Below, piece after piece: positions 3,621 through 24,061 of a stretch of 64,000 nt of DNA. Under the pieces are notes generated by a model that made no database searches, was not told the DNA's origin, and worked only from the letters and a program-made list of their open reading frames with translations. The translations under genes and the position numbers were made by a program. The stretch's first letter is position 1. Every line of letters begins with the position of its first letter. Source of the stretch: Prochlorococcus sp. MIT 1300 (GTDB lineage: Bacteria; Cyanobacteriota; Cyanobacteriia; PCC-6307; Cyanobiaceae); contig NZ_CP139302.1 of assembly GCF_034092375.1 (NCBI RefSeq), positions 434,001 through 498,000 on the forward strand, given 5' to 3'.

Positions 3621-4436
3621 ATGAAACATGCAATTATCTCCTGTTTACACGCCAATCTCCCTGCAACGGAAGCTGTGCTGAATGACATTGACCGACAGGG
3701 CATTAACACCATTACCTGTCTTGGTGACTTAGTAGGTTATGGTCCCCACCCCAATGAAGTAGTTGAGCTAGTGCAACAGCGTGGCATCGCTACCTGCCAG
3801 GGGTGCTGGGACGAAGATATCATCGATGGTCTTAATGCCTGTGAGTGCAGTTACCCTTCACAGCTAGCAGAAAGGCGTGGGCACCTGGCCCACCAATGGA
3901 CAGCCGATCAGCTAACAAATGAAAACAAACTCTTTTTAGCTGGCCTCCCAACATCCTTACGTCGAAATCAACTTCTATTCGTGCATGGCAGTCCCAACAG
4001 CCAGCATGAGTACCTACTACCAGATATGGATGCATTTGCAGCGCTCGAGCGTGTAGAAACAGCGGGAGCAGATACTCTGTTTTGCGGACATACCCACCAG
4101 CCTTATGTACGTGAATTAATGGATGGATCAATCCGTGTGCGTTTACAAAACGGCAGTAACGATAAAGCTGAGGAAAAGGAACTTGCCTTGCCGATGCGCA
4201 GAATCGTCAATGCTGGATCAGTTGGCGAACCACGTCATGGGAGCACAAATGCGACCTATGTAATTCACGACGATGCTAATGATGAAGTTGAGATCAAAGA
4301 GGTGGCCTATGAGGTCGAGCGAACGTGTCAAGCGATTATTGAAGTAGGGCTACCGAAAGTGTTCGCATGGCGCCTAAGTCATGGCTTTGAATTCGCAGAA
4401 CAGGCTGAAGATGCTAGTCACGTCTGTGAACGATGA
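3621..4436 (+). CDS. calcineurin-like metallophosphoesterase (YfcE-type) with altered metal ligands
   Basis: The start is ATG 3621; an upstream in-frame extension to 3504 overlaps the previous gene and is rejected. The 271-aa product has the fold's signatures in order. Residues 7-12 are SCLHAN where the family has SDxHGN. CLGDLVGYGP is at 33-42 (the GD motif), and GCWD at 61-64 stands where GNHD is usual. VHGS is at 121-124, CGHTHQP at 155-161, and NAGSVGEPR follows. The final GHTH histidines and the GD aspartate are intact. The first Asp and the Asn are each replaced by Cys, which would change the dinuclear metal site. It overlaps the next gene by four bases (ATGA), so the two are co-translated. 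Substrate unknown. Confidence 0.8.
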   Translation: MKHAIISCLHANLPATEAVLNDIDRQGINTITCLGDLVGYGPHPNEVVELVQQRGIATCQGCWDEDIIDGLNACECSYPSQLAERRGHLAHQWTADQLTNENKLFLAGLPTSLRRNQLLFVHGSPNSQHEYLLPDMDAFAALERVETAGADTLFCGHTHQPYVRELMDGSIRVRLQNGSNDKAEEKELALPMRRIVNAGSVGEPRHGSTNATYVIHDDANDEVEIKEVAYEVERTCQAIIEVGLPKVFAWRLSHGFEFAEQAEDASHVCER

Positions 4437-7696: not shown

Positions 7697-8086
7697 TTAT
7701 AGCCTGCTATATCCACACTTGCTCTCAAATATTTTGACAGGAAGGCCTGTTTCCTCTAAAGCAGTCTTACACTTATCTCCAACTGTTCCATAAACCTCAA
7801 CGGTAAATCCGTCTCCTAATTGCGCATGTCCTTGCAAATATGCTCCAACTGGTGGATTCGCCAGATGGGAAAGGAAAGCTTCATCATCTTTGTAGACCTC
7901 TGACCATGTAAAACAAAGAGGGTTTTCTGGATCTTGATCAAAGGTGTGATGCAACATGCCTGGCTCAGAAGCTTGAACAGCAGCATCAGTGTTAGTTGCA
8001 AGTTCTAAATATTCTGAAACTTTATCAGGCTTAATTTGAATACGAGCAATAAGGATGAAAGGAGTTGAACTGTCAAATTTGACCAT
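7697..8086 (-). CDS. antibiotic-biosynthesis-monooxygenase (ABM)-like dimeric barrel protein
   Basis: The ATG at 8086 is preferred; the TTG just upstream adds one residue. The 129-aa product carries the ABM pattern: FILIARIQIKPDKVSEYLEL, then SEPGMLHHTFDQDPENPLCF and TWSEVYKDDEAFLSHLANP. These are the strand, the xEpG turn, the catalytic-type His region and the F.e.y.d..A...H motif of COG1359 proteins. A C-terminal extension (about residues 95-129) has two Cys. Family members act as small oxygenases or stress-related ligand binders. The substrate cannot be told from sequence. Confidence 0.8.
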   Translation of the reverse strand: MVKFDSSTPFILIARIQIKPDKVSEYLELATNTDAAVQASEPGMLHHTFDQDPENPLCFTWSEVYKDDEAFLSHLANPPVGAYLQGHAQLGDGFTVEVYGTVGDKCKTALEETGLPVKIFESKCGYSRL

Positions 8087-8179
8087 CAAAAGAACTCACA
8101 AGTCGATAAAGCATTAAATATATTTCTAGGATTTTCGATGTCAAGAGGCATCTCTTCACGGTCTACTGACAAAAGCCAG

Positions 8180-11511: not shown

Positions 11512-11844
11512 TCCTAGCAGTGATAACTGAAACCTTGTCCTTATCTGCGAGATATGTGGCAAGTTCTGCAGCCAATAAAAAAGGTCCTAGCGAAACGCTA
11601 CGGACCTGGGTGATGGGGACCTTATTTCTAAGGCTGATTCAGCTCAAAATCAACCCCCATTTGTAGGGTTTTTTCTTATCAAAGATATTAAGAAACCCCA
11701 TAAATAGCGTGTATCTACCGATGACAAATCGCTTGACAGTGTGTAGGTTCCATTCAACGGCCGGGTGATGGGGATCAAACGGTCTTAATACAAGAGCCTC
11801 TTTTCTGCATGGGGGCTTTTTTTGTGGGTGGAATGCTCGGGGAT
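11512..11844 (+). repeat. 333-bp direct repeat, copy 1
   Basis: It matches 13,851-14,183, and I can see only one difference (A versus G near the left end). Internal features: a 10-bp hairpin, GGTCCTAGCG / CGCTACGGACC, preceded by A6, which makes it a leftward terminator; GGGTGATGGGGA occurring twice; a TTGACA; and at the right end AGCCTC / GGGGGCT followed by T7, a rightward terminator. There is no transposase or reading frame of length. The two terminators facing outward suggest an embedded short transcript, possibly a small RNA. Conservation to the base implies recent duplication or gene conversion. Confidence 0.85.
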
Positions 11845-11852
11845 GGAGTGAT

Positions 11853-12020
11853 ATGACGATCAGAGTTTTGGAGCTTGCCGAGAAGCTCCAAGTTGGCACG
11901 GATGACTTACTTGCAGTTTGCACGCTTCTAAAAATACCAGCGACTTCAAGGATTAGTTGCCTTAGCCCTGATCACATCAAAAAGCTGACGACCTATTACA
12001 AAAAAAAGCCTGATAAATAA
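11853..12020 (+). CDS. free-standing IF2-N-like small protein, copy 1
   Basis: This 55-aa product, MTIRVLELAEKLQVGTDDLL, then AVCTLLKIPATSRISCLSPD, matches the pattern of the IF2 N-terminal subdomain: IRVxELAkxLxv, DLLxxcxxLxIxa, then a S.LSpe.. helix. In initiation factor 2 this roughly 50-aa module precedes the GTPase core. Here it is alone. A copy with a few substitutions is at 20,052. It starts nine bases after the 333-bp repeat. A role on the ribosome or in tRNA binding is inference from the domain only. Confidence 0.7.
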   Translation: MTIRVLELAEKLQVGTDDLLAVCTLLKIPATSRISCLSPDHIKKLTTYYKKKPDK

Positions 12021-12021
12021 G

Positions 12022-12106
12022 ACCTTTCTGCTGAATCTTGCTCCCTGAGGCGTTCTTCTACCTCCTCATATAAGTCGTCATGAAAGTTTCATTCGCGATT
12101 AGTCAT
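12022..12106 (-). pseudogene. broken copy of the acidic small protein (9508/20,606 family)
   Basis: From ATG 12,106 the frame reads MTNRE, then TGA, then NFHDDLYEEVEERLREQ, matching NFDDDSYDEVEERLREQ of the 20,606 copy. The Arg codon CGA has become TGA, and the YFPVEESKPP tail is lost. The start overlaps the stop of the upstream 56-aa gene (ATGA). Confidence 0.7.
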
Positions 12107-12273
12107 TGGTCGTCTTTATCCTTTCCTTGAAACCAACCCTGCTCTTTCCTCCCTCTCATTAGGGAGGTAATCAACGCACCAGAAAAAAACGCTCCAATAC
12201 ATCCCATGATCAGAAGCAGCGAGGAAGGAGCATTAGCTCCAGCAACTTGGCTTAGCGGGTCAAGAGTATCCAC
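12103..12273 (-). CDS. small single-pass membrane protein, 56 aa
   Basis: It starts at GTG 12,273 and reads VDTLDPLSQVAGANAPSSLL, then a helix (LLIMGCIGAFFSGALITSLM) and a polar tail GRKEQGWFQGKDKDDQ. It occupies the place in the 12-kb block that the 32/33-aa membrane peptide takes in the other two blocks, but it is not homologous. Its stop overlaps the ATG of the broken acidic peptide by four bases. Confidence 0.55.
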   Translation of the reverse strand: MDTLDPLSQVAGANAPSSLLLIMGCIGAFFSGALITSLMRGRKEQGWFQGKDKDDQ

Positions 12274-12303
12274 TTAAGTCTTCTACTTTGATTTGTACTT
12301 TCT

Positions 12304-12408
12304 CTAAAGAAGGCAGCATCTGTTTAACCGCATAGGCGCAACACCAAAGATCACCAAGACGCCAATGGTCTGAATAAAATCCATCTAGGTGGCAGTGAGG
12401 TGGTTCAT
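12304..12408 (-). pseudogene. interrupted copy of the 20,832 membrane peptide gene
   Basis: It reads MNHLTAT, stop, then MDFIQTIGVLVIFGVAPMRL and a short tail, with the same stop and one-base deletion as the copy at 9268. The two form an inverted repeat of at least 78 identical bases. A later frameshift truncates the end at CCTTCTTTAG. Remaining translation from the internal ATG would give about 26 aa. Confidence 0.7.
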
Positions 12409-12542
12409 GCTTCCTTTCTAGCCATTGCCAACTTGATCCGCATTGCTGGTCTTAAGCGTTGACTTGCTGGCATGACAGACCTTTAGGCGAAAAGAAACGC
12501 TGCCCAAAAGCTGCGTAGATTATTCACAGTGTTTTGTTTTCA

Positions 12543-12791
12543 ATGATCCTCGTAAAGATCACCAATTCGACAGAAGTAGTGGCTTCTAAAACCCATAAGC
12601 TTTTTGCGAAGGTAACTCCTGAAAAGGTTGACGAGAATCTGGTGGAGGCGGAAGTTATCAAACAAATGGGCTCAGATCTTGCTTCCTTTGGCCTTAAAGG
12701 CGAAATTTCAATCGTCAAAGGGATTGATGTTGTAGAAGAGGCCCTTATTACTAAGAAAGGTTTTGTAGTCAAAAAGAGTCAGAGCTTTTGA
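12543..12791 (+). CDS. hypothetical protein, 82 aa
   Basis: The start ATG 12,543 is preferred over 12,534 because the protein then begins MILVKITNSTEVVASKTHKL with a first strand. The rest reads like a small alpha/beta domain (VDENLVEAEVIKQMGSDLAS, GLKGEISIVKGIDVVEEALI). It is soluble, with no metal or nucleotide motifs. The SemiSWEET gene starts 7 bases downstream, so the two share a transcript. Not recognised. Confidence 0.6.
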   Translation: MILVKITNSTEVVASKTHKLFAKVTPEKVDENLVEAEVIKQMGSDLASFGLKGEISIVKGIDVVEEALITKKGFVVKKSQSF

Positions 12792-12798
12792 TTTCTAA

Positions 12799-13098
12799 AT
12801 GGGAATTGATCCACTAATAAAGCCTGACACCTTCGGCTTTATAGCAGCTGCATTAACGACCATTGCTTTCTTACCTCAGGTCATAAAGACATGGAGAACT
12901 AAAAAGGCTGAGGATGTGTCGGTCGTGATGCTCTTGATGTTCATCACTGGTCTCTTATTTTGGATCGTCTATGCAATACAAACAAATGCTCTCCCTGTTC
13001 TTATCGCAAACATAATTACCTTCATCCTTAACGTGACAATCCTTACTCTTAAGTTGATCTACGGAAAGCAACCTAGTAGTACTCAAACAAGTGAGTAA
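12799..13098 (+). CDS. SemiSWEET/PQ-loop transporter
   Basis: The product has 99 aa. The three helices of a SemiSWEET half-transporter are visible: about residues 10-28 (FGFIAAALTTIAFLPQVIKT), 41-60 and 66-88. The PQ motif FLPQVIKTWRTKKAEDVS sits at the end of helix 1, as the family requires. Such proteins dimerise in the inner membrane and move small sugars. A second member is at 25,660. The stop overlaps the next ATG by one base (TAATG), placing it in a chain of coupled genes up to 13,819. Confidence 0.85.
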   Translation: MGIDPLIKPDTFGFIAAALTTIAFLPQVIKTWRTKKAEDVSVVMLLMFITGLLFWIVYAIQTNALPVLIANIITFILNVTILTLKLIYGKQPSSTQTSE

Positions 13099-13262
13099 TG
13101 ACTCTTAGCCCGCATAGACAACACAAGATTTACCTCGCAGCAACGATGGGATATGGACTTGGTTCAAATGATCCTGAAGAGATCACTTACTACAACAAGG
13201 TCAAGGAGGAGATCAATAAGGACAAGGAGAACAGAAATTTGGGAATACCCAGGGAGGAATAA
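13098..13262 (+). CDS. hypothetical small soluble protein, 54 aa
   Basis: The product begins MTLSPHRQHKIYLAATMGYG and has a charged helix (EEITYYNKVKEEINKDKENR). Both its start and its stop overlap neighbours by one base (TAATG on each side), strong evidence that it is translated. No family recognised. Confidence 0.65.
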   Translation: MTLSPHRQHKIYLAATMGYGLGSNDPEEITYYNKVKEEINKDKENRNLGIPREE

Positions 13263-13381
13263 TGCGCTACTTCTGGCCTATCGCTCCTATCGTTTTCTGT
13301 CCGCTCACACTTCTGTTTATTTATCTCAGCTTCACTGAGCCATCAGGAGATAAGCAAGAGCAAAACATCCACATGCAGTAG
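13262..13381 (+). CDS. small membrane peptide, 39 aa
   Basis: MRYFWPIAPIVFCPLTLLFI forms one helix, followed by a short acidic/polar tail ending KQEQNIHMQ. A truncated paralogue is at 2166. It is coupled to the 54-aa gene by a one-base overlap, and the DUF2905 gene follows after 51 bases. Confidence 0.6.
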   Translation: MRYFWPIAPIVFCPLTLLFIYLSFTEPSGDKQEQNIHMQ

Positions 13382-13432
13382 GAAGTCATTCTGCAAATAG
13401 AAACGTTGGTTTAAACGCTGCATAATTAGGGA

Positions 13433-13633
13433 ATGCAAAAACTGCTAATTACTTTTGGGCTTGGTATTGCTGCTATCGGAGTTCTTTATCCTTATCTGAA
13501 GAATTTGGGTTTAGGTCAACTACCAGGCGACATTGTTTTGAGGAGTGAGAACTCAACCTTTTACTTTCCAATCGTGAGTTGCATTCTTGTGAGTTTGGTG
13601 GTTTCAGTCATTTTTAATTTGCTCAGCAAATAG
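13433..13633 (+). CDS. DUF2905 membrane protein
   Basis: The product has 66 aa with the family layout: helix 1 (LLITFGLGIAAIGVLYPYL), the LGQLPGDIVLR loop, NSTFYFP, then helix 2 (VSCILVSLVVSVIFNLL). The DUF2905 signature is LPGDI..........FYFP. The function of the family is unknown. The stop is directly followed by the GTG of the next gene. The intact block (13,262-13,819) is the parent-like version of the decayed 2,166-2,750 block. Confidence 0.9.
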   Translation: MQKLLITFGLGIAAIGVLYPYLKNLGLGQLPGDIVLRSENSTFYFPIVSCILVSLVVSVIFNLLSK

Positions 13634-13819
13634 GTGACTGCATCTTCAATTATTCAAATTGGGTTGTCCATTCTATGGCTATTAGGCCATGCAGGTTTTA
13701 CCCTTTGGGCTGGAGGGTTTGAACCAGGGAGCCCAGCCGCAAATGTTTTCGTAGCTTTAGATTCCCTGCTGTCACTAGCCTTAGCTTTTTTCATCTACAA
13801 GAAGACTATTAATACCTAG
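13634..13819 (+). CDS. small two-helix membrane protein, paralogue of 2532
   Basis: The 61-aa product starts at GTG 13,634, immediately after the DUF2905 stop. It carries the same WAGGFEPGSPAANVFVALDS loop as the 2532 copy and two flanking helices. Constant adjacency to DUF2905 in both copies suggests that the two proteins form one membrane unit. Confidence 0.75.
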   Translation: MTASSIIQIGLSILWLLGHAGFTLWAGGFEPGSPAANVFVALDSLLSLALAFFIYKKTINT

Positions 13820-13850
13820 TGATTCAATTCTCAAGGTTCTACCGCCCATC

Positions 13851-14183
13851 TCCTAGCAGTGGTAACTGAAACCTTGTCCTTATCTGCGAGATATGTGGCA
13901 AGTTCTGCAGCCAATAAAAAAGGTCCTAGCGAAACGCTACGGACCTGGGTGATGGGGACCTTATTTCTAAGGCTGATTCAGCTCAAAATCAACCCCCATT
14001 TGTAGGGTTTTTTCTTATCAAAGATATTAAGAAACCCCATAAATAGCGTGTATCTACCGATGACAAATCGCTTGACAGTGTGTAGGTTCCATTCAACGGC
14101 CGGGTGATGGGGATCAAACGGTCTTAATACAAGAGCCTCTTTTCTGCATGGGGGCTTTTTTTGTGGGTGGAATGCTCGGGGAT
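13851..14183 (+). repeat. 333-bp direct repeat, copy 2
   Basis: Near-identical to 11,512-11,844 (see there). The same two terminator-like hairpins are present. The similarity extends weakly to the left (TTCA.TT.TCAAG), but the right flank is unrelated, so the right boundary at CTCGGGGAT is sharp. The two copies bracket 2.0 kb containing the IF2-N-like, SemiSWEET and DUF2905 genes. Confidence 0.85.
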
Positions 14184-17011: not shown

Positions 17012-17058
17012 AGTCGGGGCGACAGGATTCGAACCTGCAACCTAGTGCTCCAAAAGCA
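17012..17058 (-). repeat. 3'-half copy of tRNA-Pro (att-like site 1)
   Basis: It matches the 3' half of tRNA-Pro at 23,988-24,061, from the discriminator through the T arm to the anticodon loop, with a few changes (TGCAACC for TGCGACC, CCAAAAGC for CCCAAAGC). Sequence beyond the tRNA end also matches (TAGCTACCCCTAGAGCTACCC, CTCAGTTGAGA), so the copy includes flanking DNA. This is how a tRNA-targeting integrase leaves its remote attachment site. Confidence 0.85.
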
Positions 17059-17213
17059 ACCGGTCAAACTTAGTTAAATCAGGGGATCTCAGTCCTAAAC
17101 CTTTATAACAGCTAGATTCTTTGTTCGTCGTAGTTCGGAAAAAGCCGCTAAAGGTTGACGTTTTCCCACGCCTTTCCCACAGTATGACCTAGTGAATCCC
17201 AAGCACCCGGTCG

Positions 17214-18413
17214 ATGCCTAAGCAAGTTGAGAAAGACAGTTGGGTGATAGCAGTTAGGGAACTTCTCAAGGAATCTTTGGCCTCTACCGACCAATGGTTC
17301 ATCTCTCAAAGTCGCGGACAAATTCGATTAGAAATAAGAGACAACGGCAAGCAATCAAAAGTTTTACCTTTCGCATGGACTAAAAAAGGCGGCTCGCAGG
17401 CTCTACCAAGAATCCTGGAAATCTATAAGCGATATGTCCAAGGGAAAGGAAAACTAACTCTTGCCCAATGTTGTGAAGTAACGGAAGTATCTAGTTCAAA
17501 ACATGAAATTGCATGGAATGAATTAATCAAGGACTTCAAACCTTTTGTTCCTAATGCCAGTGAAAAAACTTGGCAGAAAAGTTATGTCCCTGTTTTGAAT
17601 CGAGCAGCCGTCTTAATGCAAAGGACAAAAGGCAAACCAAAGGACGGTGAAGAGCTGATGATGAAAGCGCTTGAGCAATGGGAACAAGGAAGCAGATCAA
17701 GACAGATTGCTCGTCGCAGTCTCAAGAACTTTCTTCAGTGGGGTGTCCTGCGTGGAAAGTTGATCGCTGCTTATGCTCCGCCAGCTCATATCCCGGAAAC
17801 AAGAAAACCTAAAAGGATCGGTTATGCCTTAACTGATTTGCAAATCCTTCGGCTTATTGAATTTGAGCCTGATGAGAAGTGGCGATTCGCTTTTCAACTT
17901 TGCTCGGTCTATGGACTAAGACCAGAAGAACTTCGCCACCTAGCCATCAAAGAAGGACCAAATGGCAAAGAACTCTGGTGTAAATATCAGAAATCAAAAG
18001 GTGGAAAGAGGGGAGATAAAACTGAGCCTCGAAGACTCCATTCTTTGTTTTTGAAAGATATGGACGGCAATCTTGTTGATTGGAATCTGCAAGTAAGGAT
18101 TGAAGCTGATGAATCTCTTCCCCCTTTAGGTGATGAAGGTGATGGGGGTGAAGCGTTAAGAACTCATCTAAGAAGACGACCTGTATGGAAAGCACTTAAA
18201 AAAGAAGCCGAGCATGTAGGCGAAGTATTGGTGCCATATACCTTCAGGCATAGATACGCCAAGGCTTCTCATGCTGCTGGATTCCCTGTTTCCAATATCG
18301 CCGCGGCTATGGGTCACACCCTTGAGGTTCATTTAGAGAGCTATGCCCGGTTCATTCCAGATGGGACAGCAGACCTATATGCCAAGAGAAACGCAAGGGA
18401 AAAAGCTGCTTAG
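17214..18413 (+). CDS. tyrosine recombinase / integrase
   Basis: The product has 399 aa. A SAM-like N-terminal core-binding domain lies at about residues 90-185, then the catalytic domain. The family's residues are present: Arg I in YGLRPEELRHL (R236), the box II arginine in PYTFRHRYAK (R345, with Y342 where His is usual and H346 behind it), GH at 367-368, and the nucleophile in LESYARF (Y377). All are placed correctly, so the enzyme looks active. It starts 156 bases from a partial tRNA-Pro copy and points toward the intact tRNA. It is the likely integrase of a tycheposon-type or similar element. Picocyanobacterial islands are known to use such enzymes. Confidence 0.93.
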   Translation: MPKQVEKDSWVIAVRELLKESLASTDQWFISQSRGQIRLEIRDNGKQSKVLPFAWTKKGGSQALPRILEIYKRYVQGKGKLTLAQCCEVTEVSSSKHEIAWNELIKDFKPFVPNASEKTWQKSYVPVLNRAAVLMQRTKGKPKDGEELMMKALEQWEQGSRSRQIARRSLKNFLQWGVLRGKLIAAYAPPAHIPETRKPKRIGYALTDLQILRLIEFEPDEKWRFAFQLCSVYGLRPEELRHLAIKEGPNGKELWCKYQKSKGGKRGDKTEPRRLHSLFLKDMDGNLVDWNLQVRIEADESLPPLGDEGDGGEALRTHLRRRPVWKALKKEAEHVGEVLVPYTFRHRYAKASHAAGFPVSNIAAAMGHTLEVHLESYARFIPDGTADLYAKRNAREKAA

Positions 18414-19994: not shown

Positions 19995-20051
19995 AACAAA
20001 ACAACCGGAATGGGTCGAGGGCTTTCGATAAGGTCACTGCCTGAAAGTGAT

Positions 20052-20216
20052 ATGACGATCAGAGTTTTGGAGCTTGCCGAGAAGCTCAAAGTTGGCACGG
20101 ATGACTTACTTGCAGTTTGCACGCTTCTAGAAATACCAGCGACATCAAGGATTAGTTGCCTTAGCCCTGAGCACATCAAAAAGCTCACGGCCTACTACCA
20201 AGAGAAGTCGTCCTAA
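20052..20216 (+). CDS. free-standing IF2-N-like small protein, copy 2
   Basis: The 54-aa product MTIRVLELAEKLKVGTDDLL then AVCTLLEIPATSRISCLSPE is nearly identical to the 11,853 copy. The longer frame from 20,010 is rejected because similarity between the copies starts only at AGTGATATG, just before this ATG. The sequence suggests the IF2 N-terminal module. Differences between copies are few, so both are probably functional or recently duplicated. Confidence 0.7.
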   Translation: MTIRVLELAEKLKVGTDDLLAVCTLLEIPATSRISCLSPEHIKKLTAYYQEKSS

Positions 20217-20240
20217 GTTTGAGTAAAGGGGAATGGCTCC

Positions 20241-20549
20241 ATGGCAAAACCCACTCAAAAAAGAAAACTTCAAAACTATTGGAAGCTTGCCTCAGTTTGC
20301 AAAGAAACTGAAGACAAGATCAATTTCTTTGACCTCTATCAAGAGGCGTTTGAATTAATGCCTGAAACACAAGAAGAGCTTAAAAATGCAAGGATATACT
20401 TTCAACAGGAGTGGGGGATTGATCTTGAAGAATACGAAAAGAAAAACGCTGATTACCCTAATGAATTTAAGGTCATCGCTTTTAATTCTTGTATTTTGAA
20501 TGGCGTGGCGTATTCAGAGTTCAAAGATCTTTATGGCTTTTATTACTAA
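20241..20549 (+). CDS. hypothetical soluble protein, 102 aa
   Basis: The product is rich in aromatic and charged residues (KLQNYWKLASVCKETEDKIN, FFDLYQEAFELMPETQEELK, FNSCILNGVAYSEFKDLYGF). It is likely all-helical. It follows the IF2-N-like gene by 24 bases. No family recognised. Confidence 0.6.
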   Translation: MAKPTQKRKLQNYWKLASVCKETEDKINFFDLYQEAFELMPETQEELKNARIYFQQEWGIDLEEYEKKNADYPNEFKVIAFNSCILNGVAYSEFKDLYGFYY

Positions 20550-20605
20550 TAGATATTAGGGAATACCTTCCCTAAAGTACTTTCTAGTGCCTTTGCGGCA
20601 GCCTC

Positions 20606-20737
20606 TCAATAATTCGGAGGTTTTGACTCCTCAACAGGGAAGTAAGCACGATCTTCTTCGTCTGGATTTTGCTCCCTGAGGCGTTCTTCTACCTCGTCAT
20701 AAGAGTCGTCATCAAAGTTGCGTTCAGGCTTGGTCAT
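20606..20737 (-). CDS. acidic small protein, 43 aa, paralogue of 9508
   Basis: Core NFDDDSYDEVEERLREQNPD and tail AYFPVEESKPPNY match the 9508 protein closely. Its ATG overlaps the stop of the upstream 33-aa membrane peptide (TCATGA). The block of three coupled genes (20,606-20,978) is the only copy with every frame intact. Confidence 0.75.
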   Translation of the reverse strand: MTKPERNFDDDSYDEVEERLREQNPDEEDRAYFPVEESKPPNY

Positions 20738-20835
20738 GACTTGGCTTCTTTTCTGCCTTTCCAAATCAGGAGCAGTGGTAAGCCAACGAGCATCAAGCTG
20801 CCATCAATTAATAGGTAGGTGTTGAGCATGCTCAT
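20734..20835 (-). CDS. tiny single-pass membrane protein, 33 aa
   Basis: The product reads MSMLNTYLLIDGSLMLVGLP and ends LLLIWKGRKEAKS, a paralogue of the 9410 peptide. Starts and stops overlap both neighbours by three or four bases, giving a fully coupled three-gene unit. Confidence 0.7.
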   Translation of the reverse strand: MSMLNTYLLIDGSLMLVGLPLLLIWKGRKEAKS

Positions 20836-20978
20836 TCCTCAACCCTCACATCGACTCTCTCTATCCGCTGCTCATCTTTAAGCAGCATCTGTTTGACCGC
20901 ATAGGCAGCAACACCAAAGATCACCAAGACACCAATGGTCTGAATGAAATCGATGTAGGTGGCAGTGAGGTGGTTCAT
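20832..20978 (-). CDS. single-pass membrane protein, 48 aa (intact member of the MNHLTAT family)
   Basis: The product starts MNHLTATYIDFIQTIGVLVI, with a helix to about residue 30, then a charged tail (KDEQRIERVDVRVEE). It is the reference for the two interrupted copies at 9268 and 12,304. It is the first gene of the coupled triplet. Confidence 0.7.
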   Translation of the reverse strand: MNHLTATYIDFIQTIGVLVIFGVAAYAVKQMLLKDEQRIERVDVRVEE

Positions 20979-21149
20979 GTTCCCTTTCTAGCCCTTGCCA
21001 ACCATGTCAGCATTAGAGATGTGGAGGATTAACCAATGTTTTCCCCCTAATGACTGAGGGTTCCATCAACTTCTACGCCTTTAACCAAAGACAATTCAGG
21101 AATACAGGGATTCATTTCATGACGACGAACCACTCGCTTCTTAAACAAC

Positions 21150-21893: not shown

Positions 21894-21941
21894 AGTCGGA
21901 GCGACAGGATTCGAACCTGCGACCTAGTGCTCCCAAAGGAC
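21894..21941 (-). repeat. 3'-half copy of tRNA-Pro (att-like site 2)
   Basis: It reproduces the tRNA-Pro 3' half from the discriminator to the anticodon loop with one change (GTCGGAGCG for GTCGGGGCG). The sequence to its left (CCATTGCAATTAC) also occurs beside site 1 (GCATTGCAATTAC). It lies 2.1 kb from the intact tRNA and 4.9 kb from site 1. Confidence 0.85.
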
Positions 21942-22063
21942 ATTGACTCAAAAGATGAGACTTGCTCAGAACGATTGCTGTTAAAGGGTTTTTAGAAGCG
22001 ATGCAAATCGATTTGAGACTCAATATTGCAAGAACTTAGAACGTATTTAAAGGGCTTTCAACT

Positions 22064-23828: not shown

Positions 23829-23987
23829 GACAGAAAGTTGGCCCTATGACTTAGTTAGTCCATTTGATTCTCATAGTTCCACTTGGGGGCGCTTACAACG
23901 CACCAAAAGGCTGTAGGGACAAGCTATTGCAATAAGCTAGCGCCCCCTACAGCGCCCCTTTCTCAATTGAGATCCGTCAAAAGCCAG

Positions 23988-24061
23988 TCGGGGCGACAGG
24001 ATTCGAACCTGCGACCTAGTGCTCCCAAAGCACCCGCGCTACCAAACTGCGCCACGCCCCG
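23988..24061 (-). tRNA. tRNA-Pro (TGG anticodon)
   Basis: This is a complete 74-nt cloverleaf on the minus strand. The acceptor stem is CGGGGCG/CGCCCCG with discriminator A. The D arm contains GCGCAGTTTGGTAGCGC. The anticodon stem-loop GGTGC-TTTGGGA-GCACT has TGG at positions 34-36. The T arm is GCAGG-TTCGAAT-CCTGT, and CCA is not encoded. Its 3' end faces the partial copies at 21,894 and 17,012, as expected for an integration hotspot. Confidence 0.97.

Follow-up and report, generated by a model that had tools for sequence, protein, structure and literature searches.

NrdR is regarded as a dedicated repressor of ribonucleotide reductase (RNR) genes, and in small RNA (sRNA) sponges, or target mimics, an sRNA imitating an mRNA start region competes for the repressor RNA. 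The Yfr1/Yfr10 - Yfr2 network of Prochlorococcus consists of two short terminator-bounded RNAs that carry mutually complementary conserved motifs, occur in multiple copies and often lie in genomic islands (PMC2518516, PMC6778093). In this study, we analyzed a 64-kb window (positions 434001-498000 of the single-contig 1.855-Mb genome of Prochlorococcus sp. MIT 1300), in which a 333-bp element occurs twice, at 11512-11844 and 13851-14183. The element is like the Yfr network in all of the above features, and unlike it in its motifs (UCCCCAUCACCC / GGGUGAUGGGGA, as against ACUCCUCACAC / GUGUGUAGGAG) and in their divergent arrangement around NrdR-type boxes. It also resembles the NrdR regulon, where box pairs precede RNR genes, in palindrome type, helical phasing and the presence of nrdR, whereas described NrdR regulons are centered on RNR genes and the boxes of the element would control non-coding RNAs. 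As in sRNA sponges, one of its RNAs (R) imitates an mRNA start, but here the mimic and an antisense RNA (L) stand back to back and share one operator. We propose, with a probability of roughly 60%, that the element is an NrdR-controlled cassette that would supply both an antisense repressor (L) and a target-mimic sponge (R) of rpoD4, a group-2 sigma factor gene whose mRNA reaches its maximum at the light-dark transition (PMC2663038, PMC2921402).

The target was suggested by the 10-mer GTGATGGGGA, which occurs 11 times in this genome, compared with once for the reversed control. Seven of the 11 sites are located in elements, one lies over the start codon of rpoD4, and the other three are within or antisense to ORFs (open reading frames), leaving the rpoD4 site as the only one of the four non-element sites at a translation start; it recurs in MED4 and MIT9301. 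The gene belongs to the RpoD/SigA family (TIGR02997), and its position near the MED4 end together with the literature identifies it as rpoD4 (PMM1697). Its start region, AGGAGGCCAGGGTGATGGGGATCCCTCTGGAATCT, is conserved in relatives at the level of single bases, while the flanks on either side are not; even synonymous positions are kept (ATC in 27, CCT in 28 and CTG in 27 of 30), and in nearly all of the 30 genes the region folds into a hairpin whose apical loop is GGGG. This conservation (e.g., in stretches L302 and L290) spans the Shine-Dalgarno (SD) sequence, the start codon and the first five codons across genomes of very different GC content.

Both RNAs of the element match this region. 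The near-invariant UCCCCAUCACCC of the L-RNA is exactly complementary to the rpoD4 start-codon hairpin, and for the consensus L, read from the sequences, 16 of 17 positions are complementary to the rpoD4 start. The L reverse complement has 11-14 nt in common with the rpoD4 start in almost every copy, and R usually has 14 nt; the uninterrupted 12-nt match of the window L is longer than that of any of about 2,850 random 80-nt windows, which reach at most 11 nt. A stand-alone L module of MED4 (936.7 kb) shows 18 bp of complementarity, interrupted by one bulge, to the SD and start, again as read from the sequences. The R-RNA sequence GGCCGGGUGAUGGGGAUC equals rpoD4 GGCCAGGGUGAUGGGGAUC minus one A (18 of 19 nt) and takes the same fold. 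When the nrdJ (class II RNR) leader was considered as a target, no motif was found near the nrdJ start. The L-RNA shows several traits of a trans-acting antisense sRNA, namely a conserved complement to the translation start of its target, its own terminator and a conserved RNA structure. We suggest that it would pair with the rpoD4 start hairpin GGAGGCCAGG-GUGAUGGGGAUCC, covering the GUG/AUG just 3' of the SD and blocking translation, and that the R-RNA (about 66 nt), through GGCCGGGUGAUGGGGAUC and its GGGG apical loop, would mimic that hairpin, titrate the L-RNA and free rpoD4. Since hairpin shape and sequence are both common to R and rpoD4, an RNA-binding protein, rather than the L-RNA, could be what recognizes the GGGG-loop hairpin, with R titrating it in the manner of CsrA/CsrB; we consider this unlikely, as it gives no reason for the invariant exact loop complement in the L-RNA.

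The two RNA modules were delimited by covariance models and pair counts. The L-RNA module extends over 11577-11676 on the minus strand (copy 2, 13916-14015), with its 3' end at the U-tract and a predicted length of about 100 nt, and was scored at 93.8 bits by covariance model R2 at 11575-11669 and 13914-14008. Its single conserved antisense motif, UCCCCAUCACCC (11608-11619, minus strand), which is also complementary to the R-RNA loop, lies directly before the intrinsic terminator (11577-11606, minus strand), and CCCCATCACC is invariant in 38 of 38 aligned L modules. Covariation analysis showed 92.7% of cells paired and 18 double-change cells, and none of 500 shuffles reached the covariation score. 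In the terminator stem G-U pairs are tolerated on the minus strand only, where the same positions on the plus strand would be A-C, so the L-RNA was assigned to the minus strand; the same pairs ruled out a single plus-strand RNA for the whole element. A minus-strand leader peptide of about 10 codons (GTG/ATG GGG GTT GAT TTT ... TAG) was discarded as well, because start codon and G-run length vary by eye.

On the other side of the boxes, the R-RNA (about 65-67 nt with its predicted 5' end; minimum free energy -24.9 kcal/mol) occupies 11757-11823 on the plus strand (copy 2, 14096-14162), and model R1 gave 86.8 bits at 11726-11822 and at 14065-14161. It comprises the hairpin GGCCG-GG-UGAU[GGGG]AUCA-AA-CGGUC (11759-11784), the mimic of the rpoD4 start-codon hairpin, and an intrinsic terminator (11793-11823) supported by pair counts and fold. 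Here 93.6% of cells were paired and six pairs had double changes, and again 0 of 500 shuffles reached the score. Covariation and tolerance of G-U on the plus strand are seen both in the hairpin (GGCCG..CGGUC, inner UGAU[GGGG]AUCA) and in the terminator, and these wobbles and compensatory changes favor transcription of R from that strand. Each of 37 R copies carries GGUGAUGGGG unchanged, as does each of 38 L copies CCCCAUCACC. Of the two GGGTGATGGGGA occurrences that look like a direct repeat on the plus strand, one is thus the loop of R and the other the complement of the tail of L, which means that the divergent L and R transcripts would carry complementary 12-mers. Each element copy is therefore predicted from its sequence to encode two divergent RNAs, each ending at an outward terminator.

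For R, a promoter is proposed from ATGACA (-35, 11721-11726), followed after 17 bp by TAGGTT (-10, TAnnnT, 11744-11749), both conserved in the copies; in A1 the A of the latter is invariant and its T's are nearly so. No consensus promoter was found in a mechanical promoter scan, so this assignment is drawn from conservation only. The TTGACA highlighted in the first-pass annotation is present (11733-11738, plus strand) and conserved, but it sits within the spacer between these two hexamers and is probably not a -35 box. CTTGACA at this position is also strongly conserved in homologues and fits neither hexamer.

To assess the palindromes between the two RNAs, we used a weight matrix built solely from 42 boxes in 21 nrdJ promoters of relatives; most relatives' nrdJ genes have such box pairs upstream, 31-32 bp apart. 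The four top sites of this matrix in the 64-kb window were both boxes of both copies, i.e., CCCCCATTTGTAGGGT at 11654-11669 (15.6 bits) and, 41 bp away, ACCCCATAAATAGCGT at 11695-11710 (17.6 bits, the best site in the window), with their counterparts at 13993-14008 and 14034-14049. The element pair reached 33.2 bits, compared with 10.7 for the next unrelated pair, and about 85% of elements were above the 99% null. Among Synechococcus/Cyanobium elements, 26 of 27 have their boxes 31 bp apart, and among Prochlorococcus elements 36 of 50 show a distance of 40-41 bp. Binding by NrdR requires three or four helix turns from one box center to the other and is otherwise poor (PMC12051234), and the spacings of the predicted boxes, about 31 or 41 bp, correspond to the two known to allow it. 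This genome contains nrdJ and encodes NrdR (TIGR00244, 201.8 bits, over the cut-off). An earlier reading of the palindromes as integron attC or recombinase sites was dropped after the nrdJ matrix matched. A transcription factor other than NrdR might bind them, given that the assignment comes from sequence similarity and that Prochlorococcus boxes are slightly unlike nrdJ boxes; we regard this as rather unlikely, since a matrix derived from nrdJ alone gives them the highest ranks in the window, and both spacings allowed for NrdR occur. In the proposed cassette, the box pair would make transcription of one RNA, or of both, respond to the dATP/ATP ratio: at high dATP NrdR would bind and alter the output of one or both. 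The boxes are multi-copy, with as many as about nine elements in one genome, and might thus act mainly as a DNA decoy, island box pairs titrating NrdR and raising nrdJ expression with the RNAs as by-products. A decoy, however, leaves the RNA covariation, the invariant complementary motifs and the identity to the rpoD4 start unaccounted for, and we find it distinctly improbable.

Several observations weigh against the proposed cassette. The boxes are weak in about 15% of elements, and the promoter and 5' end of L were not located. The predicted fold of the L-RNA pairs CCCCAU with its own G-run, with CACCC free. In a simple duplex program, the total L/rpoD4 hybridization energy was not clearly better than that of long-sequence controls, so the case for rpoD4 rests on the contiguous conserved match. 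In freshwater and marine Synechococcus, moreover, the R hairpin falls within the leader of a protein-coding gene (judged Ycf20-like by eye, with no family match), and the sponge role therefore cannot be universal. In Synechococcus/Cyanobium the left module lies upstream of a small membrane-protein gene and the R hairpin within the leader of that gene, where it could serve as another target or as a sponge carried by the mRNA. A GTGATGGGGATCAC hairpin was also observed right before the terminator in the 3' untranslated region of a small protein gene adjoining element copies (stretch L034, about 4050-4100; similar sites in L012 and L039), and this is possibly a further target or sponge.

The repeat itself had been described in the first-pass annotation as a near-identical 333-bp sequence devoid of ORFs, with two GGGTGATGGGGA motifs and outward-facing terminators, and this description was confirmed. 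Pairwise comparison of the copies gave one mismatch (11523 A / 13862 G; 99.7% match, far above chance), with a leftward extension at weaker similarity to about 11484/13823, and no ORF was seen to be shared among the copies. The leftward terminator consists of the hairpin GGTCCTAGCG-AAA-CGCTACGGACC (11583-11606) beside A6 (11577-11582), the rightward one of the stem AGAGCCTC..GGGGGCT with T7 at 11817-11823, and GGGTGATGGGGA is found at 11608-11619 and 11763-11774. What had been overlooked is that the element holds two RNAs, an NrdR-type operator between them and complementarity to rpoD4. More diverged copies are present in the same genome at about 415.1, 415.6 and 428.9 kb, all within 33 kb of the repeat pair.

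Homologues, whose absence would have left only a simple duplication, were abundant. A DNA similarity search gave matches in 33 of 99 genomes, that is, this one and 32 others, all from the same family (of about 60 such genomes searched), with up to nine per genome, and the covariance model of the right half matched 106 of 300 family genomes. At least 120 stretches of named genomes contain a 19-base core, most of them from Prochlorococcus, Synechococcus and Cyanobium. No match was found in phage records and viral contigs, and an Rfam search with the gathering cut-off and a relaxed E-value matched no family. This abundance and the covariation in both terminator-bounded halves support a functional RNA locus at the repeat, beyond an orphan duplication. 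Both alternatives raised by the first-pass annotation, a functional small RNA and a recent duplication, thus hold, as the two window copies seem in addition to have arisen by recent duplication or conversion in this genome. Non-functional island DNA that had simply undergone a recent segmental duplication would fit the 1/333-bp difference, the duplication of adjoining segments, and the tRNA-Pro 3' remnants and tyrosine recombinase 3-10 kb away; the duplication is real, yet the homologues in 106 of 300 family genomes, the covariation on the expected strands and the box phasing make it highly improbable that it explains the content of the element.

In MED4, one full element (348.78-348.97 kb) and two stand-alone left modules were identified (copies at 348.8, 772.4 and 936.7 kb). 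None of these is included in the 2008 MED4 table of non-coding RNAs (PMC2518516), and it is possible that transcripts from element copies were detected earlier in transcription start site work on MED4/MIT9313. The published coordinates of Yfr8/Yfr9, Yfr11, Yfr13 and Yfr16 of MED4 do not match the element copies. Membership in the Yfr2-5 family, prompted by GTGTGTAGG, was rejected because most element copies lack this sequence; only the closest copies have it, and most carry GTGACTA rather than the family-wide 5' GUGUGUAGGAG. Small ORFs with a GMLHHTFDQDP motif were noted near the repeat (7697-8089, minus strand, in the window) and directly beside the MED4 element (348968-349357, plus strand).

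The region beside the repeat resembles a tycheposon-like island, with tRNA end repeats and a tyrosine recombinase as in the mobile islands called tycheposons (a second-hand description in PMC10872708). The tRNA-Pro 3' ends are located at 17013-17062 and 21895-21944, the full tRNA-Pro at 23987-24061, and an ORF for a Phage_integrase-type tyrosine recombinase at 17214-18413 (plus strand); the repeat lies near, yet outside, the interval bounded by the tRNA-Pro 3' ends. Mobility of the element on islands appears plausible because its copies cluster in such regions. Further duplicated segments were noted between 11847-12444 and 20046-21014 (94%, 89% and 83%), about 8 kb apart and including a 55-aa IF2_N-like ORF. 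In another stretch (L008 1300-1985, equal to L142), an element copy has a partial tRNA-Ala on one side and a complete one on the other, like a very small tRNA-flanked insertion.

Taken as a whole, the element may represent an island-spread RNA switch of picocyanobacteria that couples the deoxynucleoside triphosphate (dNTP) state, via NrdR, to RpoD4, using an antisense RNA together with its own mimic of the rpoD4 start, a tentative view to which we give slightly less than even odds. If true, this would add a non-coding arm to the NrdR regulon, linking the supply of DNA precursors to global transcription, and would account for the unusually conserved and so far unexplained start region of rpoD4. 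A repeat in a seemingly "decaying" island can thus be a widespread regulatory gene, and in photosynthetic cells that are among the most abundant on Earth the element would provide a direct route from dNTP supply to transcription.

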